Shown here piece by piece: positions 27,885 through 41,531 of a DNA stretch of 64,000 nucleotides. This DNA is from Streptomyces nigrescens (GTDB lineage: Bacteria > Actinomycetota > Actinomycetes > Streptomycetales > Streptomycetaceae): the NCBI GenBank assembly GCA_024349765.1, contig AP026073.1, positions 6,634,001 to 6,698,000 on the forward strand, written 5' to 3'. The notes under the pieces were generated by a model that made no database searches, was not told the origin of the DNA, and saw only the letters and a list, made by a program, of their open reading frames with translations. The number at the start of each line of letters is the position of its first letter. The first letter of the stretch is position 1. The translations under genes were made by a program, and so were the position numbers.

Positions 27885-28156
27885 GTCGCTCCCCCACTCC
27901 CTCCGGCCGCCGGGGGTCCCGGGACCGCGGATCGGCACAGCTCTGCGCCATCGGCGCCATACGCTCAGCACTTTATCCACAGAGATACGTCCCGGAGAAC
28001 ACGTTCTGGGCTACTCGTCATGACCATCGCGGCGGCCGAAGTGACCGCCGCCGCCATGAGCCGCGCGATGACCTCCGCGATGACCTTCGACCGGAGGGAA
28101 TCCGTGCATACCGCCCCGAACGGCGAGAACGGCAACTCCCGCTTGTGGCAAGGACC

Positions 28157-28189
28157 TTGACAGGAGCATTGGTCTGGACCACGTTGTAC
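28157..28189 (+). promoter_or_regulatory. Chitinase promoter with DasR-type operator (dre)
   Basis: TTGACA (28157-28162) is a consensus -35 box. ATTGGTCTGGACCACG (28168-28183) fits the dre pattern in which TGGTCTAGACCA is the core, bound by the GlcNAc-responsive repressor DasR. The operator lies between -35 and the presumed -10 region (28180-28189), an arrangement expected for repression. The chitinase start is 87 bases beyond the operator. Confidence 0.82.
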
Positions 28190-28270
28190 GGCACGCACGC
28201 ACAGGGGCCCCTGAACGCGCATCCGCACCACCCCTCTCACCGTCCCCCCACTCCCCACACGGAGGCAGTC

Positions 28271-29371
28271 GTGGTTCGCGCACGATCAGATGCGGTTCGC
28301 GCAGGTTCAGGTTCGTTGGGCGCACGGTCGGTCACGGGCGTACACAAGGTCAGGGTGAGACTGCTCGCCGGGCTGGCCGCCGCGGTGCTGACCTCGGCCG
28401 GTCTCGTCGCCGCCGGCACCGCCCAGGCCTCGCCGGAACACCCGGCCGCGGCCGCCGCCCGGGCCACCGGCTCCGCGGCGCACCCCGCCGCCGTCCCCGC
28501 GCACGCCCTCACCGGCTACTGGCAGAACTTCAACAACGGTGCCACGGTGCAGAAACTCAAGGACGTCGACGACGCCTACGACATCATCGCGGTGGCGTTC
28601 GCCGACGCCACCGACCGGCCCGGGGCGGTCACCTTCCACCTCGACCCGGCCGTCGGCTACGGCTCCGTCGACGACTTCACGGCGGACATCAAGGCCGAGC
28701 AGGCGGCCGGCAAGTCCGTGATCCTCTCGGTCGGCGGCGAGAAGGGGGCGATCTCGGTCAACGACGACGCCTCCGCGAAGAACTTCGCCGACTCGGTCGA
28801 CAAGCTCATGGACGCCTACGGCTTCGACGGCGTCGACATCGACCTGGAGAACGGCCTCAACGCGACGTACATGACCCAGGCCCTGAAGGCGGTGCACGCC
28901 GCGCACGGCGACGTCGTGGTGACCATGGCCCCGCAGACCATCGACATGCAGTCGCCGCAGAACGAGTACTTCAAGACGGCGCTCGGCATCAAGGACTTCC
29001 TGACCGCCGTCAACATGCAGTACTACAACAGCGGTTCCATGAACGGCTGTGACGGCAAGGTCTACGCCCAGGGCTCGGTGGACTTCTTGACCTCGCTCGC
29101 CTGCATCCAGCTCGAAAACGGCCTGGACCCGTCGCAGGTCGGCATCGGCGTCCCGGCGTCCGACCGCGCGGCCACCAGCGGCCACGTCGCCCCGTCCGTC
29201 GTCAACGACGCGCTCGACTGCCTGACCAAGGGCACGGGCTGCGGCGCGTTCACGCCGCCGAAGAAGTACCCGGGGCTGCGCGGCGCGATGACCTGGTCCA
29301 CCAACTGGGACGCCGCCAACGGCAACGAGTTCGCCCACCAGGTGGGCACCCACGTCCACGGCCTCCCGTAG
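28271..29371 (+). CDS. Secreted GH18 chitinase
   Basis: This 366-residue family 18 glycoside hydrolase cleaves beta-1,4 links in chitin. The active-site motif FDGVDIDLE (185-193) supplies the catalytic acid Glu193. Substrate-binding motifs SVGGEKG, TMAPQ and AVNMQYYN are present. The secretion signal spans about residues 27-53. No carbohydrate-binding module is attached, so this is a single-domain enzyme. The GTG at 28271 is supported by GGAGG five to six bases upstream, although it leaves an unusually long N-region; a GTG near 28354 is the alternative. The dre site indicates induction by chitin breakdown products. Confidence 0.93.
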   Translation: MVRARSDAVRAGSGSLGARSVTGVHKVRVRLLAGLAAAVLTSAGLVAAGTAQASPEHPAAAAARATGSAAHPAAVPAHALTGYWQNFNNGATVQKLKDVDDAYDIIAVAFADATDRPGAVTFHLDPAVGYGSVDDFTADIKAEQAAGKSVILSVGGEKGAISVNDDASAKNFADSVDKLMDAYGFDGVDIDLENGLNATYMTQALKAVHAAHGDVVVTMAPQTIDMQSPQNEYFKTALGIKDFLTAVNMQYYNSGSMNGCDGKVYAQGSVDFLTSLACIQLENGLDPSQVGIGVPASDRAATSGHVAPSVVNDALDCLTKGTGCGAFTPPKKYPGLRGAMTWSTNWDAANGNEFAHQVGTHVHGLP

Positions 29372-32027: not shown

Positions 32028-33512
32028 TCACACCAGCAGGCTCACCAGCGCCGCCACCGCGAACCCCGCGACCGAGAGGACCGATTCCAGCACCGTCCAG
32101 GTCTTCAGCGTGTCGCGTTCGGTGATGCCGAAGTACTTGCTGACCATCCAGAACCCGCCGTCGTTCACGTGCGAGGCGAAGATCGAGCCCGCCGAGATCG
32201 CCATGATGACGAGTGCGACGAAGGGCTGCGAGTGGTGGCCCGCCTCGATCAGCGGCCAGACGATGCCGGCCGTGGTGACGATCGCGACGGTCGCCGAGCC
32301 CTGGGCCACGCGCAGGACGAGGGAGATCAGGTAGGCGAGGACGATCACCGGCAGGCCGATGCCCTTGAAGGTGTCGGAGAGCGCCTGGGCGACGCCGCTG
32401 CCCTTGAGGACCGCGCCGAAGATCCCGCCGGCGCCGACGACCAGCAGGATGTTGCCGACCGGCTTCAGGGCGGCGGTGGACACCGTCTCCAGGGACTTGC
32501 GGGACCAGCCGCGGCGGATGCCGAGCAGGTAGTACGCGAGCAGCAGCGCGAGGGTCAGGGCGACGAAGGGGTGGCCGAAGAACTCGACGACCGAGCGGGC
32601 GGTGGAGGGCGCGAGGGCGATCGAGGAGAAGGTGGCGAGCAGGATCAGGACGAGCGGGGTGCCGATGATGGCGAAGACGGTGCCGAGCGGGACCGGCTTC
32701 TCCGCCGGCGTGACGCCGGCCCGGTGCTGTTCCTCCGCCAGCGCGGCCTTCGCCTCCGCCGCGGCCTCCACCATGTCCTGCGGCACGGGCACGAAGATCC
32801 GCTTGCCGATCCAGGCGGCCCAGCCCCAGGCGGCGAGGACGGCGGGGAGGCCGCAGACGATGCCCATGAGGATGACCCAGCCGAGGTCGACGTGGAGCAG
32901 GCCCGCCGCCGCCACCGGACCCGGGTGCGGGGGCAGGAAGGCGTGGGTCATGGACAGGCCGGCGAGCAGCGGCATGCAGTACAGGACGATCGACTTGCCA
33001 CCCCTCTTGGCGGCCGCGTAGACGATCGGTGCGAGGACGAAGATGCCGACGTCGAAGAAGACCGGTATGCCGAAGATCAGGCCGGTCAGTCCCATGGCGA
33101 GCGGCGCGCGCCGCTCGCCGAAGAGGTGGAGCAGGCGGGAGGCCAGCACCTCGGCGCCGCCGGAGACTTCGAGCACCGCCCCGAGCATGGTGCCGAGGCC
33201 GATGATGATCGCGACGTGGCCGAGGGTGCCGCCCATGCCGGACTCGATGAGCGAGACGGCGTCGGACTTCTGGACGGTGCCGAAGAGTTCGGTGACGGAG
33301 AGGCCGGCGCCGAGTCCGACGGCTGTCGAGACCGCCAGGAGGGCCACGAACGGCTGGAGCCTGATCTTGATGATCAGGAAGAGCAGCAGCACGATGCCGA
33401 GCGCGGCGACGGTCAGCAGTCCGGCGGTGCCGCCGATGAGGGGGAGGATGCCGCCGGTGTGGGGTGGTGTTCCGGCAGGGGTGGCGGCCGCGAGCGGGGC
33501 GAACGGGGACAT
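32028..33512 (-). CDS. GntP-family sugar-acid/H+ symporter
   Basis: This 494-residue permease has about twelve or more spans. Family motifs include FGIPVFFDVGIFVLAP, then HAFLPPHPGPVAAAGLL, and SHVNDGGFWMVSKYF, all classic for gluconate permeases (GntP/GntT) and their relatives that carry D-serine (DsdX) or other sugar acids. It is the last gene of the kinase-IclR-RidA-permease run. With a deacylase, deaminase and sugar-acid kinase alongside, the best fit is uptake of N-acetyl-D-glucosaminate or a related acid. Plain gluconate or D-serine remain possible. GAGGTCAACG precedes the ATG. Confidence 0.93.
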   Translation of the reverse strand: MSPFAPLAAATPAGTPPHTGGILPLIGGTAGLLTVAALGIVLLLFLIIKIRLQPFVALLAVSTAVGLGAGLSVTELFGTVQKSDAVSLIESGMGGTLGHVAIIIGLGTMLGAVLEVSGGAEVLASRLLHLFGERRAPLAMGLTGLIFGIPVFFDVGIFVLAPIVYAAAKRGGKSIVLYCMPLLAGLSMTHAFLPPHPGPVAAAGLLHVDLGWVILMGIVCGLPAVLAAWGWAAWIGKRIFVPVPQDMVEAAAEAKAALAEEQHRAGVTPAEKPVPLGTVFAIIGTPLVLILLATFSSIALAPSTARSVVEFFGHPFVALTLALLLAYYLLGIRRGWSRKSLETVSTAALKPVGNILLVVGAGGIFGAVLKGSGVAQALSDTFKGIGLPVIVLAYLISLVLRVAQGSATVAIVTTAGIVWPLIEAGHHSQPFVALVIMAISAGSIFASHVNDGGFWMVSKYFGITERDTLKTWTVLESVLSVAGFAVAALVSLLV

Positions 33513-33562
33513 CGTTGACCTCGTAAGTGCATGAGACTTTCAGGGCAGGAGGGATCGCGGCA

Positions 33563-33585
33563 CGGCACACCGCGCTGGTGTGCCG
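33563..33585. other. Intercistronic hairpin between RidA and GntP genes
   Basis: CGGCACACC-GCGCT-GGTGTGCCG is a perfect 9-bp stem in the 115-base gap of a same-strand gene run. There is no following T tract. It may attenuate or stabilise mRNA ends rather than terminate. Confidence 0.5.
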
Positions 33586-33627
33586 CCCCGTGACGACGTA
33601 CGGCTTGCTGGTGGTGCGGGGGAGGGC

Positions 33628-34038
33628 TCAGCCCAGGACGGCGAGCGCGTCGATCTCGATGAGCAGGCCCTTGGGCAGACCGACGTAGACGGTCGTGCGG
33701 GCGGCCGGGGCCTCCTTGAGGCCCTGCTCCTCGAAGTACTGGTTGTAGATCTCGTTCATCTCGGCGAAGTGGTCGGTGTCCGTGAGGTAGACGCGCATCA
33801 TCATCACGTCGTCCCAGGTCGCGCCGCCCTCTTCGAGGATCGCCCGGACGTTGGCGAAGGTCTGCAGGGTCTGCTCGCGCAGGGTCGGGCCGGCCGGGGT
33901 GGGGGCCTGGCCGTCGACCGCGGGGAGGAAGCCGACCTGGCCCGCGACCTGGAGGATGTTGCCCTTCTTCACGCCGTGGGAGAACTTCGCGGGCGGGGTG
34001 GTGTGGGTGGCCGGGGTGAGGGCGGTCTTCTCGCTCAT
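33628..34038 (-). CDS. ridA: RidA family enamine/imine deaminase
   Basis: This 136-residue YjgF/YER057c/UK114 protein hydrolyses reactive enamine/imine intermediates released by PLP dehydratases. The RidA core ILQVAGQVGF, then LREQTLQTFANVRAILEEGG, and VYVGLPKGLLIEIDALAVLG are present. Position 106-108 reads APAARTTVYV, keeping the Arg that binds the substrate carboxylate. AAGGAAG is seven bases from the ATG at 34038; an upstream ATG at 34044 overlaps the IclR stop but is too close to that site. Its co-location with a PLP deaminase is a strong functional hint. Confidence 0.93.
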   Translation of the reverse strand: MSEKTALTPATHTTPPAKFSHGVKKGNILQVAGQVGFLPAVDGQAPTPAGPTLREQTLQTFANVRAILEEGGATWDDVMMMRVYLTDTDHFAEMNEIYNQYFEEQGLKEAPAARTTVYVGLPKGLLIEIDALAVLG

Positions 34039-34040
34039 GC

Positions 34041-34799
34041 TCATGCTTCCTTGGTCGGTGTACTGCCGGAGTACTCCCGGCTGATGGCGTCGGCGGTACG
34101 GCGCACCAGCGGGAGCAGGGTGAGGAGTTCCTCGGCGGAGACGACGACGTTCGGTGCGGAGACCGACATGGCGGCGACGACGCGGCCGTCCGCGCCGCGG
34201 ACGGGAGCGGCGACGCAGTTGATGGACTCCTCGTGGCCACCGAGGTCGGTGGCCCAGCCCTGTTCGCGGACCTTGGCCAGTTCGGCGAGGAAGGCCGTGG
34301 CGTCGGGGGTCGAACGGGCCGTGTAGCGGGGGTAGTCGAGCGTCGCGGCGAGGGTGCGGCGCTCGGCTTCCGGGAGGTCGGCGAGGAGCAGTTTGGCGAC
34401 CGCGGCGACGGTGATCGCGACGGGCTTGCCGATCCGGGAGTACATCCGGACCGGGTAGCGGCTCTCGACCTTGTCGATGTAGAGGACCTCGTTCTCCTCG
34501 TGGACCGCGAGGTGGACCGTGTGTCCGCACTTCTCGTTGAGTTCGACGAGGTGCGGGTGGGCGATCTCGCGTACGTCGAGGTTCTCGACGGCCTCCTGGG
34601 CGAGCGCGAAGAGGCGGGCGCCGAGGCGGTAGCGCTGGTCGGCCTGCCGGTAGACCAGGCCGTGTTCGTGGAGGGTGCGCAGCAGCCGCAGGGCGGTGGA
34701 CTTGTGCACGCCGAGCCGGTCGGCGACCTGGCCGAGGTCGGCGGGTCCCTCGGCGAGCAGCGGCAGGATGCTGAGCGCGCGGTCGACGGTCTGGCTCAT
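34041..34799 (-). CDS. IclR family transcriptional regulator
   Basis: This 252-residue regulator has an N-terminal winged helix (ADLGQVADRLGVHKSTALRL) and a C-terminal IclR effector domain containing HPHLVELNEKCGHTVHLAVH, then INCVAAPVRGADGRVVAAMS. KdgR, the classical sensor of 2-keto-3-deoxygluconate, is also of this family. It lies between the sugar-acid kinase and RidA genes, so it is probably the local regulator. The palindrome at 36192-36208 is its likely operator. Whether it activates or represses cannot be read. Confidence 0.93.
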   Translation of the reverse strand: MSQTVDRALSILPLLAEGPADLGQVADRLGVHKSTALRLLRTLHEHGLVYRQADQRYRLGARLFALAQEAVENLDVREIAHPHLVELNEKCGHTVHLAVHEENEVLYIDKVESRYPVRMYSRIGKPVAITVAAVAKLLLADLPEAERRTLAATLDYPRYTARSTPDATAFLAELAKVREQGWATDLGGHEESINCVAAPVRGADGRVVAAMSVSAPNVVVSAEELLTLLPLVRRTADAISREYSGSTPTKEA

Positions 34800-34807
34800 G
34801 CTCGTGC

Positions 34808-34871
34808 CTCGCTTCGCTCGGCCCTGCCTTCGCCAGGGACGCGCCTCTCGACGGCTCTCTCACTTCGCTCG
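34808..34871. repeat. Repeat-bearing spacer between kinase and IclR genes
   Basis: CTCGCTTCGCTCG (34808-34820) and CTCACTTCGCTCG (34859-34871) are near-identical 13-mers 51 bases apart. They flank a small CCCTG/CAGGG hairpin. The structure looks like a short dispersed intergenic element rather than a regulator site. Confidence 0.45.
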
Positions 34872-34872
34872 T

Positions 34873-36006
34873 TCACGGCGTGTGTACCTCCTCGACGGCC
34901 TCCTGAGTGGCTGCGATCCAGCCGGGGCCGAGGTGCAGTTTCTCCCAGGCGTCCGCGTCGAGCGCGGCCAGCCGGTCGGCGAGGGCCCGGCCGGGCGGGG
35001 CCGCGAGGTCGCCGGGGACGGTGAGGGCGGCGGCGGCGAAGAGGTGGCCGTGGCGGACGCGGGCGCGCAGCGGCAGGCCGCGGAGGGTGGCGGAGAGGAA
35101 GCCGGCGGCGAACGCGTCACCGGCGCCGACGGCGGCGACGACGTCCACGTCCGGGGCGCGGACGGCCACGCGTTCGCCGCCGTGCCCCTCGGCCCGTTCC
35201 CCGCCGTGGAAGACGACGGCCCCGCCCGCGCCCCGCTTGACCACCAGGAACTCCGGCTCGGGCAGGGCCTCGCGGATCGCCCGGCCGCCGTGCAGGCCCC
35301 AGGCGTCCCGGGCCTCGTCCTCGCCGACGAACACCAGGTCGGCCCCGCGCGCGAGGTCGAGCAGGACCCGCGGGCCGATGGGGGTACCTCCCTGCGCGAG
35401 CGGAGCCGAGAGCTGGGGGGAGCCGCGCCACAGGCCGGGCCGGTGGTTGACGTCGAACGAGACGAGGGGGCGGCGGCCGGGGCGGCGCGCGGTCAGGGTG
35501 TGCAGCAGGTCGAGGCAGTCGGCGGAGAGGGCCGCGGTGATACCGGACAGGTGCAGGATCCGGCCGTCCTGGAGGGCGCCGGTGTCCAGGGTGGTCACGG
35601 ACATGGCGGAGGCCGCGGAACCGGCGCGGTAGTAGGCGACCTCGTGGGCGTCGGTGGCGCGGTCGCCGGCGGTGCGGAAGTAGATGCCGGTGGGGCGGTC
35701 GCGGTCGCGGCGCACCGCGGAGGTGTCGACGCCGTATCCGGCGATCGTCTCGACGAGGTGGTCACCGAAACCGTCGGCGCCGACCCGGCTGACCCACTTC
35801 GTGCGGTGGCCGGCGGCGGCGAGCATGCAGGCGACGTTGGACTCCGCACCGCCGATGGCGCGGTCGAAGGAGGGGACGTCGGCGAGCCGTCCGGGCCGGC
35901 CGGGCAGGAAGGTGACCATGGACTCGCCGAGGCAGACGACCTCGGCGGCCGGGGCGGGGGTGCCGCCCGGGCCGTGGATGCCGCTGACGTCCGGGGTCGT
36001 GGTCAC
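34873..36006 (-). CDS. PfkB family sugar-acid kinase, probably 2-keto-3-deoxygluconate kinase
   Basis: This 377-residue ribokinase-fold enzyme starts EVVCLGESMVTFLP near the N-terminus. It has the PfkB motif GGAESNVACMLAAAG and the catalytic loop AAVGAGDAFAAGF, with Asp as the base. YFRTAGDRATDAHEVAYYRA is typical of KDG kinases. It would convert 2-keto-3-deoxygluconate to the 6-phosphate. Residues 196-208 are encoded by a 39-bp dispersed repeat inserted in frame between the FDVNHRPGLW strand and the next helix, a surface position. The GTG at 36006 has AAGGAG eleven bases upstream. No KDPG aldolase lies in the window. Confidence 0.88.
   Translation of the reverse strand: MTTTPDVSGIHGPGGTPAPAAEVVCLGESMVTFLPGRPGRLADVPSFDRAIGGAESNVACMLAAAGHRTKWVSRVGADGFGDHLVETIAGYGVDTSAVRRDRDRPTGIYFRTAGDRATDAHEVAYYRAGSAASAMSVTTLDTGALQDGRILHLSGITAALSADCLDLLHTLTARRPGRRPLVSFDVNHRPGLWRGSPQLSAPLAQGGTPIGPRVLLDLARGADLVFVGEDEARDAWGLHGGRAIREALPEPEFLVVKRGAGGAVVFHGGERAEGHGGERVAVRAPDVDVVAAVGAGDAFAAGFLSATLRGLPLRARVRHGHLFAAAALTVPGDLAAPPGRALADRLAALDADAWEKLHLGPGWIAATQEAVEEVHTP
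35383..35421. repeat. 39-bp dispersed repeat, copy B, in frame within the kinase gene
   Basis: The core reads CTCCCTGCGCGAGCGGAGCC; the element matches copy A (27801-27839) at 35 of 39 positions. It encodes SPQLSAPLAQGGT in the kinase, exactly 13 codons. Both copies use the same reading phase on the reverse strand. Confidence 0.82.
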
Positions 36007-36101
36007 GATCGTGTGCGCTCCTTCGCTGGGCCGGCCCGGGCGGGCCGTGCGCGGCCCGCCGTCCCTGGAGGTTTTCCCGGCGAGGTCCGCCATTTCCTGC
36101 G

Positions 36102-36137
36102 GTTTCCCGCCGTGTTTCCCGCCGTGTTTCCCACCAT
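36102..36137. repeat. Three tandem 12-bp repeats upstream of the kinase gene
   Basis: GTTTCCCGCCGT occurs at 36102-36113 and 36114-36125, with a variant GTTTCCCACCAT at 36126-36137. It lies in the divergent promoter region between kinase and deaminase genes and may bind a regulator or be replication slippage. Confidence 0.6.
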
Positions 36138-36208
36138 TGACCGGGCGATGGCCCGGATGTTAGACAGCTGTCAGCGATATGCGCAATGGTCGTTGCAGAG
36201 CATGCAAC
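36137..36208 (+). promoter_or_regulatory. Divergent promoter region with IclR-type operator
   Basis: TTGACC (36137-36142) and TTAGAC (36160-36165) with 17-base spacing form a plausible forward promoter. GACAGCTGTC (36163-36172) overlaps it, and GTTGCA-N5-TGCAAC (36192-36208) lies just downstream. The TTGCA/TGCAA arms resemble sites of IclR-family regulators. A regulator bound there would block the deaminase transcript and could also act on the divergent kinase gene. Confidence 0.6.
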
Positions 36209-36228
36209 ATGATCTTTGAGGAGGCCCC

Positions 36229-37518
36229 ATGACGGGGGAGCGGCTCGCGCAGGGACTTGCGGAACTCGCGGACGAACGTGTCGATCACCGCTTCAAGGGG
36301 CTTCCCCCGGACGCCGAGGGACTGACCGTCGGCGAGCTGGCCGCCGAGCGCCGCAACCTCTTCGACGGCGGGTTCACCACCCCCGTCCTGGCCCTCTCCG
36401 CGGAGGCCGTCGAGCACAACCTGGCCGCCCTGGAGACCTACTCCACCCGGCACGGCCTGGCCTTCGCCCCGCACGGCAAGACCTGCATGGCCCCCCAGCT
36501 CTTCGCCCGCCAGCTGGAGCACGGCGCCTGGGGCATCACCGCGGCCGTCCCGCACCAGGCCCGGGTCTACCGCACGTACGGCATCCAGCGGATCTTCCTG
36601 GCCAACGAGCTGGTGGACGCCGCCGCGCTGCGCTGGCTGGCCGGTGAGCTGGCCGCCGACCCCGACTTCCGCTTCGTCTGCTACGTCGACTCGCTGCCCG
36701 GCATCGCGCTGATGGACGCCGCGCTGCGGGAGGCCGGCGCCACCCGCCCGGTCGACGTGGTCATCGAACTGGGCGCGGGCGAGGGCGCGCGCACCGGCGT
36801 CCGCACCGAGGCCGAGTGCCTCGAACTCGCCGACGCCATCGCGGGCGTGGACACCCTCCGGCTGGTGGGCGTCGCCGGGTACGAGGGCGAGGTGCCGGAC
36901 GCCGACGGCGAGCGGGTGCGCGCCTGGCTGCGCCGACTGGTGTCACTGGCCGTGGAGTTCGACAAGGCCGGCCGGTTCGCCGACCTGGACCGGATCGTCG
37001 TCAGCGCCGGCGGCAGCGCCTGGTTCGACGCGGTCGCCGAGGTCTTCGAGGAGATCCCCGCCCTGTCGGCACCGGTCCTCAAGCTGCTGCGCTCGGGCGC
37101 GTACGTCTCGCACGACGACGGCCACTACCGCCGGCTGACCCCCTTCAACCGCATCCCGGACGAGGGCGATCTGCAGCCCGCCTTCCGGCTGTGGGCGCAG
37201 GTCGTCTCCCGCCCCACGCCCGGCCAGGCGTTCCTCAACGCGGGCAAGCGCGATGCGGCCCACGACCTGGACCTGCCGCGGGCCCAGGTCGTGCGGTCCG
37301 GCCGGGACGGCAGCGAGCGGCCGGCGGACGGGATCACCGTCACCGGGCTGTCCGACCAGCACGCCTGGCTGGCGACGGAACGCGCCGGGGACGTCGAGGT
37401 CGGCGACTGGGTCGGGCTGGGCCTGTCCCACCCGTGCACGTCCTTCGACAAGTGGCAGCTGATCCCGCTGGTCGAACGGGACGGCACGGTCGTCGACTTC
37501 GTCCGCACCTTCTTCTGA
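36229..37518 (+). CDS. Fold-type III PLP deaminase/dehydratase (D-glucosaminate or D-amino acid type)
   Basis: This 429-residue enzyme has an alanine-racemase-like N-terminal barrel with the PLP Lys84 in FAPHGKTCMAPQ. The C-terminal D-serine dehydratase-like domain has metal-binding His and Cys in SDQHAWL and LSHPCTSFDKW. This family includes D-serine dehydratase, D-threonine aldolase and D-glucosaminate dehydratase. The adjacent sugar-acid kinase and the GntP permease favour D-glucosaminate, whose deamination gives 2-keto-3-deoxygluconate through an enamine that RidA can hydrolyse. GAGGAGG precedes the ATG. The deacylase gene follows 34 bases later. Confidence 0.88.
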   Translation: MTGERLAQGLAELADERVDHRFKGLPPDAEGLTVGELAAERRNLFDGGFTTPVLALSAEAVEHNLAALETYSTRHGLAFAPHGKTCMAPQLFARQLEHGAWGITAAVPHQARVYRTYGIQRIFLANELVDAAALRWLAGELAADPDFRFVCYVDSLPGIALMDAALREAGATRPVDVVIELGAGEGARTGVRTEAECLELADAIAGVDTLRLVGVAGYEGEVPDADGERVRAWLRRLVSLAVEFDKAGRFADLDRIVVSAGGSAWFDAVAEVFEEIPALSAPVLKLLRSGAYVSHDDGHYRRLTPFNRIPDEGDLQPAFRLWAQVVSRPTPGQAFLNAGKRDAAHDLDLPRAQVVRSGRDGSERPADGITVTGLSDQHAWLATERAGDVEVGDWVGLGLSHPCTSFDKWQLIPLVERDGTVVDFVRTFF

Positions 37519-37552
37519 CCCCCCGCTTCCGCCCGAGCCGAGAGGCCCCGCC

Positions 37553-39172
37553 ATGGACCTGGTCATCCGCGACGTACGCGTCCTCGACGGCACCGGCGGG
37601 GCCTCCTACCGGGCGGATGTGGCGCTCGACGGCGGCCGGATCGCCGCCGTCGTGCGCGCGGGCGGCGGCCGCCGCCCCACCGCCCGCCGCACCCTGGACG
37701 CCGGCGGCCTCGCCCTCTCCCCCGGCTTCATCGACATGCACGCGCACAGCGACCTGGCGCTGCTGCGCGACCCGGCGCACGAGGCCAAGGCCGCCCAGGG
37801 CGTCACCCTCGAAGTCCTCGGCCAGGACGGCCTGTCGTACGCACCGGTCGACGACCGCACCCTCGCCCAGGTCCGCCAGGCCGTCACCGGCTGGAACGGC
37901 GGCGGCCCCGGGGACACCTCCCTCGACTTCGACTGGCGCACGGTCGGCGGGTACCTCGACCGCCTGGACCTCGGCTTCGACGGACAGGGCATCGCGGTCA
38001 ACGCCGCCTACCTCGTCCCGCAGGGCACGGTCCGGATGTACGCGGTCGGCTGGGACGACCGGGACGCGACCCCGGCCGAGCTCGACCACATGAAACGCCT
38101 GGTCGCCGACGGCCTGGAACAGGGCGCCGTCGGCATGTCGTCCGGCCTCACCTACACCCCCGGCATGTACGCCAAGGACGCCGAACTCACCGAACTGTGC
38201 CGGGTCGTGGCTGCGTACGACGGCTACTACTGTCCCCACCACCGCAGTTACGGGGCGGGCGCCCTGGACGCGTACGAGGAGATGGTCGACCTCGCGCGCA
38301 CCGCCGGCTGCGCCCTCCATCTCGCCCACGCCACCATGAACTTCGGCGTGAACCAGGGCCGGGCCGCCGACCTCCTCGCCCTCCTCGACGACGCGATCGC
38401 GGCGGGCGCGGACATCAGCCTCGACACCTACCCGTACACCCCCGGCTCCACGACTCTCGTGGCGATGCTGCCGAGTTGGGCCAACGAGGGCGGCCCGGAG
38501 GCCACCCTCGCCCGGCTCCGCGACGACGAGACCGCCGAGCGCATCCGCCACCACGTCGAGGAGCTCGGCTCGGACGGCTGCCACGGCGTACCGATCGAGT
38601 GGGACACCATCGAGATCTCCGGCGTCGCCGACCCCGCGCTCGCCTCCGGCGTCGGCAAGACGGTCGCCCGGGCCGCCGCCGAGCGCGCCGAGGCCCCCTG
38701 GGTCACCGCCCGCCGCCTCCTCCTCGACGACCGCCTCGGCTCGACGATCCTGCAGCACGTCGGGCACGAGGAGAACGTCCGCGCGATCATGCAGCACCCG
38801 GTGCACACCGGCGGCAGCGACGGGATCCTCCAGGGCGACAAGCCGCACCCGCGCGCGTACGGCACCTTCCCGCACTACCTCGGCCACTACGCCCGCGAGT
38901 TGGGGGTGCTGTCCCTGGAGGAGTGCGTGGCCCATCTGACGGGCCGTCCGGCGGCCCGGCTACGGCTGCCCGACCGCGGCCTCGTCCGCGAGGGCTACCG
39001 CGCCGACCTGGTCCTCTTCGACCCGGACACGGTGGCGGCGGGCTCGACGTTCGAGGCCCCGCGGACGCTACCCGTCGGCATCCCGCACGTCCTGATCGAC
39101 GGGCGCTTCGTCATCGAGGACGGCCGCCGGACGGACGTCCTGGCGGGGCGGGCGGTGCGACGCACTCCATAG
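37553..39172 (+). CDS. D-aminoacylase-type amidohydrolase, probable N-acyl sugar-acid or N-acyl-D-amino acid deacetylase
   Basis: This 539-residue amidohydrolase-superfamily enzyme opens with DLVIRDVRVLDGTG and has the metal motif GFIDMHAHSDLALL. The sequence TLEVLGQDGLSYAPV then appears. The histidines in LHLAHATMNF and QHVGHEENV follow, and the catalytic Asp lies in HTGGSDGILQGDKPHPRAYG. The small beta domain ends in DLVLFDPDTV. Family members remove N-acyl groups from D-amino acids; in this context N-acetyl-D-glucosaminate is a likely substrate. Its last 105 bases overlap the end of the convergent KAP gene, which is unusual. Confidence 0.88.
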   Translation: MDLVIRDVRVLDGTGGASYRADVALDGGRIAAVVRAGGGRRPTARRTLDAGGLALSPGFIDMHAHSDLALLRDPAHEAKAAQGVTLEVLGQDGLSYAPVDDRTLAQVRQAVTGWNGGGPGDTSLDFDWRTVGGYLDRLDLGFDGQGIAVNAAYLVPQGTVRMYAVGWDDRDATPAELDHMKRLVADGLEQGAVGMSSGLTYTPGMYAKDAELTELCRVVAAYDGYYCPHHRSYGAGALDAYEEMVDLARTAGCALHLAHATMNFGVNQGRAADLLALLDDAIAAGADISLDTYPYTPGSTTLVAMLPSWANEGGPEATLARLRDDETAERIRHHVEELGSDGCHGVPIEWDTIEISGVADPALASGVGKTVARAAAERAEAPWVTARRLLLDDRLGSTILQHVGHEENVRAIMQHPVHTGGSDGILQGDKPHPRAYGTFPHYLGHYARELGVLSLEECVAHLTGRPAARLRLPDRGLVREGYRADLVLFDPDTVAAGSTFEAPRTLPVGIPHVLIDGRFVIEDGRRTDVLAGRAVRRTP

Positions 39173-41320
39173 GGGCACCTCGGACCGGGTCCGCTCCCGG
39201 ACGGCGGCCAGGACCAGGTCGCCCAGCTCCTGCTCGTTGTTGGTGAGCGAGGCGCCCAGGGTCGTGGCGCGCTCCTCGCGGTCCGGGGACCGGCGGATGG
39301 TGAAGAAGACCACCGGCCCGTCGTACTGCCCGTCCTCCTTGAGGCGTTCCACCATGACGAAGCCCGCGGTGTGGTCCCGCCCCCGGCTGATGTCGGAGAT
39401 CAGCAGGTCGGGGGTGTGGGTGCGGAGCGCCCGCACGGCGTCGACGCTGTTCTCCACATGCGTCACCTGCGCCCCGAGACCCTCCAGCACCGTGCGCACC
39501 ACGGCCTTGCGCTCCGGCTGGTCGTCGACCCACAGGACGTGGAACGGCGGCAGTGGCAGGTACGGGCTCTGCTGCCCGTAACCGGACTGTGGCATCGGCT
39601 GCGGGTAGGCGGATTGCGGCTGCTGCGGGTACCCACCGCCCTGCTGCCCCGGCTGCGGGTAGCCGGACTGCGGTACCGACCGCGGGTAGCCCGACTGCGG
39701 CACAGCCTGCGGGTAGCCGCCCTGCGGGGGGTACGCGGACGCCGGCTGCGGCTGCTGCCGCACCGCTCCCGGGCCCGGCCCCCCGGCGCCGCCCATCCCC
39801 GCGTACGGCTCCTCGCCCGACCAGGCCAGCGGCGGGCCGAAGCCCATGCCGTGGCCGTCCGCGCGGCCGTCCGGCAGGCTCTGCCACATCGGGGCCCACT
39901 CCTGGGACATCCGGGTCGGCTCGTCGCCGGAACCCTGCGGGCCCTCGCGCAGCCGTTGCAGCAGCCGGTCCGCGTCCGGGCGGGCGGTCAGCTCGTCGAC
40001 CAGCGAGGTGAACGCCGGATTGATCACCAAGGTGGGGAATTCCGTGGGGAGTTGACGCTCCAGCGCGGTCAGCACCGCCTCGCCCGACTCCCCGAGCGGC
40101 GCCGGCGCCAGCAGGTCGTACGAGGCGAGGAAGGTCCGCACCCTGGTGAGTTCGTGGTCCGGGGGCGGGACCGCGGCCGCGGACAGCAGCGTGCGCCGCA
40201 CCTCGCGGTAGGTACGGAACTCGGCCACCACATCGCCGTCCACCGTGCCGGACGGGCCGGTCATCATCCGGTAGAAGTCGGGATAGAAGTACTGCAGCAG
40301 CAGCGTCCTGATCACCGCGTCGGGGCCGAAGTCACGCCAGACCGGGTTCAGGGTCGCTTCCAGCACGAAGCCGTTGACCAGGCGTTTGATGCGGCGCGGG
40401 TTGCGGTCCGAGCGCTGGACCAGCAGATCCACCAGGGCGTCGTCGAGCAGCGGCTCGATGCCGGCGGTCCGGGCGCACCACCGGATGTAGTCCTTGACGC
40501 CGTGGTTGTCGGGGGCCGGAATCCGGTAGCTGGTCTGGAAGATCTTCTCCAGGAACGCCGAACCGGCCGGCGACAGATCGCGCAGCAGCCCGTTGGGCCC
40601 CAGCGCCGACCGGTCGCAGCCGATCATGAACGCCAGCCCGGGCACGTCCAGGTAGACCTTCACCGCCTCGCAGACCGCGAGCACCGTCTCCTCCGAGCAG
40701 CGGTCGAGGTCGTCGATGAAGACCACCAGGAGCCGGCGCGGCCGGAACTCGGTGTTCTGCGACCATTCCTGCACCAGCTCGCCGATCGCCCCGCGCATCT
40801 CGTTGCGCGCCTGGGAGTTGACCGACAGGCCCTTCCACAGCTCGTCGACGAGGCCGGCCATCCCGAGCGGTCCCGCGACGACGGTGGTCAGGGCCCGGGC
40901 CGCCCGCAGCAGCGCGCGCCGCTCGCTGACCCGGGCCAGACCGCGGCGCAGCACCCGTCGGTCGAAGCGCATCAGGACGGACTTGATCAGCCCTTCCAGC
41001 GCGTCGGCGCCGGTCGAGGTCCAGGCGTTGTACCAGACCGTGTGGACGTCGGGGGCGTGCGCCAGGTCCGCGTCGACCAGCCGCATCAGGCTGCTCTTGC
41101 CCATGCCCCAGCCGGCGTCGACGGCGAGGGTGAAGGGGGTGGACCCGCGGGAGGCGACGAGCAGGCCGGCGAGCTGACGGGCCGCGCGTCCGGCGCCGAG
41201 CAGATCCGCGCCGGGCTCGGCCACCGGCTCGTCGTTGAGGAGCGCGAACGGGCCGTGCGACGGGGGCGCGGTGACGGCCGGCGCGGCCGCGGCGGGAGGT
41301 AACGGGGCCGAGGTGGGCAT
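39068..41320 (-). CDS. KAP P-loop NTPase fused to a divergent receiver domain
   Basis: This 750-residue protein begins with a KAP NTPase: Walker A GWGMGKSS (70-77), the family motif VHTVWYNAWTSTGADALE, and Walker B LLVVFIDDLDRC (196-207). The helical insert (about 136-165) may be membrane-associated, as in other KAP proteins. A Gln/Pro/Gly/Tyr repeat linker (about 510-590, units like SGYPQ) leads to a receiver-like domain (593-710). Acidic residues Asp599/600 (WVDDQP) and Asp643 (LISDISRG) are kept, but the usual Thr-Lys is Thr-Asn (GASLTNNEQEL). KAP proteins are linked to phage exclusion and membrane signalling. The function here is unknown. ATG at 41320. Confidence 0.88.
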   Translation of the reverse strand: MPTSAPLPPAAAAPAVTAPPSHGPFALLNDEPVAEPGADLLGAGRAARQLAGLLVASRGSTPFTLAVDAGWGMGKSSLMRLVDADLAHAPDVHTVWYNAWTSTGADALEGLIKSVLMRFDRRVLRRGLARVSERRALLRAARALTTVVAGPLGMAGLVDELWKGLSVNSQARNEMRGAIGELVQEWSQNTEFRPRRLLVVFIDDLDRCSEETVLAVCEAVKVYLDVPGLAFMIGCDRSALGPNGLLRDLSPAGSAFLEKIFQTSYRIPAPDNHGVKDYIRWCARTAGIEPLLDDALVDLLVQRSDRNPRRIKRLVNGFVLEATLNPVWRDFGPDAVIRTLLLQYFYPDFYRMMTGPSGTVDGDVVAEFRTYREVRRTLLSAAAVPPPDHELTRVRTFLASYDLLAPAPLGESGEAVLTALERQLPTEFPTLVINPAFTSLVDELTARPDADRLLQRLREGPQGSGDEPTRMSQEWAPMWQSLPDGRADGHGMGFGPPLAWSGEEPYAGMGGAGGPGPGAVRQQPQPASAYPPQGGYPQAVPQSGYPRSVPQSGYPQPGQQGGGYPQQPQSAYPQPMPQSGYGQQSPYLPLPPFHVLWVDDQPERKAVVRTVLEGLGAQVTHVENSVDAVRALRTHTPDLLISDISRGRDHTAGFVMVERLKEDGQYDGPVVFFTIRRSPDREERATTLGASLTNNEQELGDLVLAAVRERTRSEVPLWSASHRPPRQDVRPAAVLDDEAPVDQDVRDADG

Positions 41321-41531
41321 GCGCCCGGAGCGTACCGGGACGGCCGTGCGCCCGCGCACCCCGCCGCGAAATCAGCAGCACCCCGGCCGGCTGCCCCTGC
41401 CGGCCGGCGGCGTCCGGCGCGACACCCGGACCCTTCGCCGTCACCGATGGTGAGGAACCCCACACCCTGCGCTCATCAACGTGGGGAAAAACACCGGGCG
41501 GGCGGCGAAACACGCCCGTAAGGTGGCGGAC

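Follow-up and report, generated by a model that had tools for sequence, protein, structure and literature searches.

A six-gene cluster in Streptomyces nigrescens probably encodes a catabolic pathway for N-acetyl-D-glucosaminate (GlcNAc1A), the C1-oxidised monomer of chitin, that ends in cleavage of 2-keto-3-deoxy-6-phosphogluconate (KDPG). The cluster occupies positions 32028 to 39172 of the stretch of DNA that we analyzed, hereafter the window, which is 64,000 nucleotides long (C1:6634001-6698000, contig AP026073.1) within a genome of 9.33 Mb. In the literature searched we found no account of how Streptomyces consume the oxidised chain end left by lytic polysaccharide monooxygenases (LPMOs). 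Chances slightly better than even go to a fuller account, in which the GlcNAc1A pathway is nearly universal in Streptomyces, its deacetylase was recruited independently of OngB, the deacetylase of the marine ong pathway, and carries Asp in place of a zinc-binding Cys, and a KdgR-like regulator of the IclR family governs two targets, the cluster and a lone KDPG aldolase gene. If true, this would give Streptomyces the missing route for oxidised chitin ends, and the pathway would not be confined to Proteobacteria; its first enzyme would be a case of convergent evolution and a second family of GlcNAc1A deacetylases. The lone aldolase of Streptomyces would also be explained, and the IclR protein might serve as a sensor of oxidised chitin.

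Gene content and predicted pathway

The six genes had been placed at these coordinates by a sequence-only reading, with which the open reading frames (ORFs) and Pfam assignments agree; RidA was recognized through NCBIfam, below the cut-off. Four genes lie on the reverse strand: a GntP-family permease of the gluconate:H+ symporter type (32028 to 33512; PF02447, E 2.7e-128), a RidA/YjgF-family protein (33628 to 34038; TIGR00004, 88 bits for a cut-off of 106), an IclR-family regulator (34041 to 34799; Pfam), and a PfkB kinase, putatively acting on 2-keto-3-deoxygluconate (KDG) (34873 to 36093; Pfam and alignment with structure 1v19). Divergent from these, on the forward strand, are a fold-type III pyridoxal phosphate (PLP) enzyme, the predicted D-glucosaminate dehydratase/deaminase and OngC counterpart (36229 to 37518; Pfam D-serine-dehydratase and alanine-racemase-N), and a D-aminoacylase-like amidohydrolase, the putative N-acetyl-hexosaminate deacetylase (37553 to 39172; Pfam Amidohydro_3).

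The substrate class that we propose is an N-acyl-2-amino-2-deoxy-hexonic acid, with GlcNAc1A as its most likely member. In the proposed pathway, the GntP permease would import GlcNAc1A and the amidohydrolase would remove its acetate. The PLP- and zinc-dependent dehydratase would then eliminate water, ammonia being lost through an enamine cleared by RidA, to give KDG, which the PfkB kinase would convert to KDPG. A KDPG aldolase, encoded elsewhere in the Streptomyces genome behind the same operator, would yield pyruvate and glyceraldehyde-3-phosphate, and the KdgR-like IclR protein would repress through the palindrome TTGCRN5YGCAA, with KDG or a related acid as the signal that lifts repression.

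The marine oxidative chitin route that the earlier reading mentioned does exist. According to the main text of Jiang et al. 2022 (PMC9537276), which combined mutants with assays, OngB deacetylates GlcNAc1A, OngC turns D-glucosaminate into KDG, KdgK phosphorylates KDG, and growth needs the RidA protein OngD; in Pseudoalteromonas prydzensis, GlcNAc1A is freed by OngA, a hexosaminidase encoded in the ong cluster. The same main text places the complete pathway in one Betaproteobacterium and in Gammaproteobacteria, many of them marine and some terrestrial; it uses neither the word Streptomyces nor the word Actinobacteria. The P. prydzensis ACAM 620 cluster and the one described here have in common a D-aminoacylase-like deacetylase, a fold-III PLP deaminase, RidA and a KDG-type kinase, the co-located set expected of an ong-type pathway, with a KDPG aldolase expected downstream. 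They differ in that the Streptomyces cluster has an IclR regulator for the RpiR protein OngR and GntP for the SSS importer OngIT, is without a TonB receptor or GH20 enzyme, has a deacylase of another branch, and has its aldolase behind the same operator. A plasmid cluster of Cupriavidus campinensis (L006) shares the PLP enzyme, PfkB kinase, KDPG aldolase and GntP permease with the window, but differs in its OngB-type deacylase and RpiR-type regulator, and no RidA match was found in the stretch examined. Its deacylase matches P. prydzensis OngB (PpOngB) at all positions checked but 348 and has the Ser292/Gln298 signature. Since GntP here accompanies an OngB-type deacylase, it can evidently replace the marine SSS importer.

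The remaining proteins are consistent with the proposed steps. The permease scored above the cut-off of the gluconate symporter model TIGR00791, with the DsdX model scoring lower, and would import the sugar acid. The PLP enzyme has the features of zinc-dependent fold-III D-serine-dehydratase-like proteins, namely, Lys84 in a PHGKT motif, which we take to be the Schiff-base lysine, and His401 and Cys403 in an HPC motif, presumably the zinc pair. RidA, by context the counterpart of OngD and an enamine/imine deaminase aiding the PLP step, has an Arg114, presumably the functional arginine of the family, that is conserved among its relatives. The best solved relative of the kinase is the Thermus KDG kinase (1v19; E 3e-37). 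Alignment and the positions conserved among its relatives show a PfkB fold, a GAGD motif, and the YYR and DVNxR motifs, whose Tyr and Arg residues we presume to bind KDG; its nearest NCBIfam models are KDG/2-keto-3-deoxygalactonate (KDGal) kinases, with scores below the cut-off. About 48 N-terminal residues of the kinase were unaligned, and its true start may lie further in.

Conservation of the cluster

A profile made from five deacylases and searched against genome contigs found at least 470 stretches with a relative. The best 80 were kept; these named loci all belong to Streptomyces, Embleya or Nocardiopsis. Gene content was scored by tblastn with the window proteins, here and in the loci discussed below. 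The arrangement GntP-RidA-IclR-PfkB / PLP-deacylase was complete and in order at 50 of the 80 named loci, and 14 were without a GntP match only; fewer genes were matched at the other 16, several of which are short or cut contigs. The PLP gene was present in 147 of 150 genomes of the genus, the S. nigrescens genome included (E <= 1e-100). Deacylase matches occurred in 33 of 296 genomes of the phylum (E <= 1e-60), and many of the phylum matches (about 33 to 42% identity) had no partner genes. Five of the 80 named loci (L104-L183) have the arrangement RidA-IclR / PLP-deacylase with no PfkB or GntP match.

A candidate operator shared with a lone KDPG aldolase gene

The sequence-only reading had listed neither an LPMO nor a KDPG aldolase in the window, correctly; a search of the genome found three proteins of each kind, classed as AA10 and PF01081, respectively, all outside it. 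Between the divergent PfkB and PLP genes lies a candidate operator, TTGCAGAGCATGCAA (36193 to 36207, unstranded), of the form TTGCRN5YGCAA that precedes the PLP gene. The strict form, TTGCAN5TGCAA, is present at two places only in the whole genome, this one and C1:1355716-1355730, upstream of the gene with the best KDPG aldolase score (C1:1355023-1355604, reverse strand), whose neighbors are unrelated genes (YaaA, RNB exonuclease, RNase H/phosphatase, and NIF3). The orthologous aldolase has the operator in all nine Streptomyces (this one and eight others), with no mismatch in three, one in five and two in one, at 62 to 126 bp before the Pfam match, while the other PF01081 paralogues of these genomes come at best within three to five mismatches of it (6 of 6). 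The operator-linked aldolase is of the Eda type, scoring above the TIGR01182 cut-off, with the model for 2-keto-3-deoxy-6-phosphogalactonate (KDPGal) aldolase below its own. On sequence grounds, the shared operator ties the lone Streptomyces KDPG aldolase, the missing last step, to the cluster.

In other genomes the aldolase can be found within the cluster itself. This is so in 9 of 24 other actinobacterial loci, outside Streptomyces (L004, L037, L049, L059, L095, L096, L098, L102, and L103), the remaining 15 giving no aldolase match by tblastn, as well as in the Cupriavidus cluster; one of the 80 named loci has a KDPG aldolase beside the cluster. A Tsukamurella plasmid record has the order RidA-IclR-kinase / PLP-deacylase-KDPG aldolase-gluconate:H+ symporter.

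The operator is equally consistent in its position before the PLP gene. Exact TTGCAN5TGCAA stands there in 67 of the 105 loci with a PLP match, the window included (68 if other spacers are allowed); TTGCRN5YGCAA is present in 23 of the other 38 and absent from 15. For the Streptomyces-type set the figure is 83 of 86 loci, and across the 1,553,389 bases of these loci all 83 occurrences of the R/Y form are next to the PLP gene. Outside this set, the operator was found in 7 of 9 clusters with an IclR match (L004, L037, L049, L059, L095, L096, and L098) and in none of 10 loci without one (L006, L050, L051, L056, L060, L094, L097, L099, L100, and L101). This co-occurrence makes the IclR regulator the likely binder, and we conclude that it probably binds TTGCRN5YGCAA. 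The nearest NCBIfam model of the regulator is the KdgR equivalog, of which it falls short (159.7 bits for a cut-off of 275). KdgR regulons likewise link an IclR-type regulator to KDG kinase and KDPG aldolase; the operator here differs in sequence from the KdgR box.

The deacylase and the identity of the substrate

With the aldolase link, the steps of the sequence-only reading hold up as the favored account, that is, GntP uptake, deacylation, elimination to KDG, phosphorylation, and control by a KdgR-like IclR protein; the deacylase, on the other hand, is not an orthologue of OngB. Several observations weigh against GlcNAc1A as the substrate, or against the arguments from which it follows, and are assembled in this section. 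The first of these concern the deacylase. PpOngB, the structure of which has been solved with substrate (main text of Wang et al. 2025, PMC12017989; PDB 9kb1/9kb3/9kb4), is likewise a D-aminoacylase-like amidohydrolase. His68, His70, His222, His252, Asp368, Tyr194, Tyr285, and Arg379 (PpOngB numbering) are kept in the window protein and its 80 named relatives. In all of these, however, Cys97 is replaced by Asp, Glu226 by Tyr, Ser290 by Gly, and the specificity residue Ser292 by Thr (80 of 80 named loci aligned), and Lys254, which binds the carboxylate in PpOngB, by Thr (Val in 1 of the 80). In the numbering of the window protein, Asp92 replaces the zinc-binding Cys, and His229, His259, and Asp423 are kept; the Cys/His/His metal site with catalytic Asp of subtype V amidohydrolases is therefore altered at its Cys. 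Position 298 falls in a poorly alignable insertion, where reading by eye and MAFFT disagree, and was left out as a specificity test. Phmmer favored a D-aminoacylase (E 6e-68) over PpOngB (7e-57). In a tree of 41 sequences OngB lies beside the Alcaligenes D-aminoacylase, and the actinobacterial deacylases form a separate clade (100/99 support); a single clade of PpOngB and the window deacylases, a grouping named after the tree had been seen, was rejected by the approximately unbiased (AU) test (p 1.2e-53). We therefore rejected the identification of the deacylase with OngB, by residues (Asp for Cys97, Thr for Lys254) and by the tree and AU test. Function cannot then be transferred by orthology, and its assignment rests on context. 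Given the separate ancestry, deacetylation of GlcNAc1A, if that is the reaction, arose twice, and the first enzyme of the pathway is probably convergent with OngB.

The deacylases of two further loci, L059 and L060, form a long-branch lineage whose separation from the window clade is not significant (AU p 0.37). Both lie beside RidA and PLP genes, and L059 also has IclR, kinase, and aldolase genes and a dipeptide-type ABC transporter.

These features of the deacylase bear on whether the cluster instead degrades N-acyl-D-amino acids, with a deacylase, a D-serine/D-threonine-type deaminase, and RidA for the enamine. Public annotation names the two proteins D-aminoacylase and alanine racemase, the best solved relative of the deacylase by sequence is a D-aminoacylase, Thr at position 292 is as in D-aminoacylases, and OngC itself accepts D-Ser and D-Thr (main text of PMC9537276). 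The metal ligands and Lys254, however, are given in the main text of PMC12017989 as strictly conserved in OngB and in the two groups of D-aminoacylases, so that the loss of Cys97 and Lys254 sets the window protein apart from these too. With D-amino acids there would also be nothing for the KDG-type kinase, the GntP permease, or the KDPG aldolase, be it operator-linked or co-clustered, to do, and we regard such compounds as most improbable substrates. The PLP enzyme is 40% identical to that of the Cupriavidus cluster and 38% identical to a stand-alone Mitsuaria enzyme, values too close for its sequence to point to one substrate.

The operator, too, has its weaknesses. In the genome as a whole the strict form is not enriched (2 places versus 2 for a reversed control), nor are the R/Y form (7 versus 16) and the form with up to one mismatch (39 versus 70). 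In the absence of over-representation by number, the argument from the operator rests on its location and the replication of that location. Two clusters with an IclR match (L102 and L103, from genomes G358 and G423) have no operator.

Other variant loci give information on the sugar. In G257, deacylase and GH20 hexosaminidase form a single ORF of 1,103 amino acids, adjoined by a gene for glucosamine-6-phosphate deaminase (NagB) and ROK-family genes. Such a fusion was seen in 1 of 150 genomes of that family, and its locus gave no PfkB or KDPG aldolase match by tblastn; the PLP-deacylase loci L094, L097, L099, L100, and L101 likewise had no kinase or aldolase match. Next to the RidA / PLP-deacylase genes of G301 are genes for an N-acetylmuramic acid (MurNAc)-6-phosphate etherase and a sugar ABC transporter (L097:61-4299).

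No LPMO was seen in the owners checked outside Streptomyces. G278, G268, and G225 gave no AA10 match. In the family of G257, where LPMOs are rare (2 of 150 genomes), the 11 genomes with this deacylase clade include neither of the LPMO-bearing ones, and no association between cluster and LPMO was seen; the zero was recorded for G257, G301, and G312 and follows for the other eight if the two counts used the same 150 genomes, as their shared identifiers suggest. Membership of an LPMO in the regulon was also rejected, as none of the seven R/Y operator places in the S. nigrescens genome is less than 7 kb from an LPMO. Owners without LPMOs may scavenge the acid or form it by other oxidation.

The same chemistry might act on another epimer or acyl group, such as N-acetyl-D-galactosaminate, N-acetyl-D-mannosaminate, or another N-acyl hexosaminate, with KDGal perhaps as the product. 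A deacylase pocket altered relative to that of OngB, the non-Streptomyces owners in which no LPMO was found, the bifunctional KDG/KDGal kinase model nearest to the kinase, and the MurNAc-6-phosphate etherase of G301 are all compatible with this. We nevertheless think it unlikely, since the operator-linked aldolase passes the Eda-type model and not that for KDPGal aldolase, and NagB and GH20 at the G257 deacylase point to a GlcNAc-type sugar.

The source of the acid was considered separately. G358 and G423 have operons of the order deacylase-kinase-aldolase-PLP followed by a seven-bladed lactonase (L102:12659-13873, L103:12365-13432), as would suit an aldonic acid also occurring as a lactone. 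One explanation would be that the cell itself makes the acid from free GlcNAc, by a dehydrogenase or oxidase and a lactonase rather than by LPMOs, and the LPMO-less owners outside Streptomyces would agree with it. An SDR gene lies near the G358 operon only, and FAD-linked oxidases are found in three deacylase loci (L099:6456-8117, PF01565/PF02913; L050:2733-4049; L049:14295-15737), the L050 and L049 matches being 64% and 45% identical; such an oxidase is possibly the source of the aldonic acid. Lactonase and FAD-oxidase queries, however, had no match in the Streptomyces-type loci searched, each of the nine Streptomyces checked has three or four AA10 LPMOs, and a lactonase would serve LPMO-made lactones as well. 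We consider an origin from the cell's own free GlcNAc very unlikely.

Chitin context and neighboring genes

Streptomyces are model soil chitin degraders. All nine Streptomyces checked have AA10 LPMOs; a link to the owner's own LPMOs was not seen outside the genus. The main text of a chitin transcriptome (RNA-seq) study of S. venezuelae (PMC12370203) does not contain the words LPMO, oxidized, gluconate, or aminoacylase.

That reading had further pointed to a chitinase with a DasR site. A GH18 glycoside hydrolase (28145 to 29371, forward strand), which the argument does not require, is indeed encoded 2.7 kb from the cluster, and a DasR-like site (28168 to 28183) lies in the 5' part of its ORF, with three mismatches to the DasR consensus; 0.16 such sites are expected by chance per window, and the site is weak evidence. 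Control of the cluster by DasR was set aside, as this sole site is at the chitinase and not at the cluster. The GH18 gene and an M14 peptidase gene were likewise set aside as evidence, being common neighbors in Streptomyces loci, perhaps by plain synteny; the 9-kb flank often ends at the GH18 gene. On its other side, the cluster is adjoined by a gene for a KAP-family P-loop nucleoside triphosphatase with a response-regulator-receiver-like C-terminal region (39068 to 41359, reverse strand), and a KAP-like gene also adjoins the cluster in another Streptomyces (L045:5678-7447).

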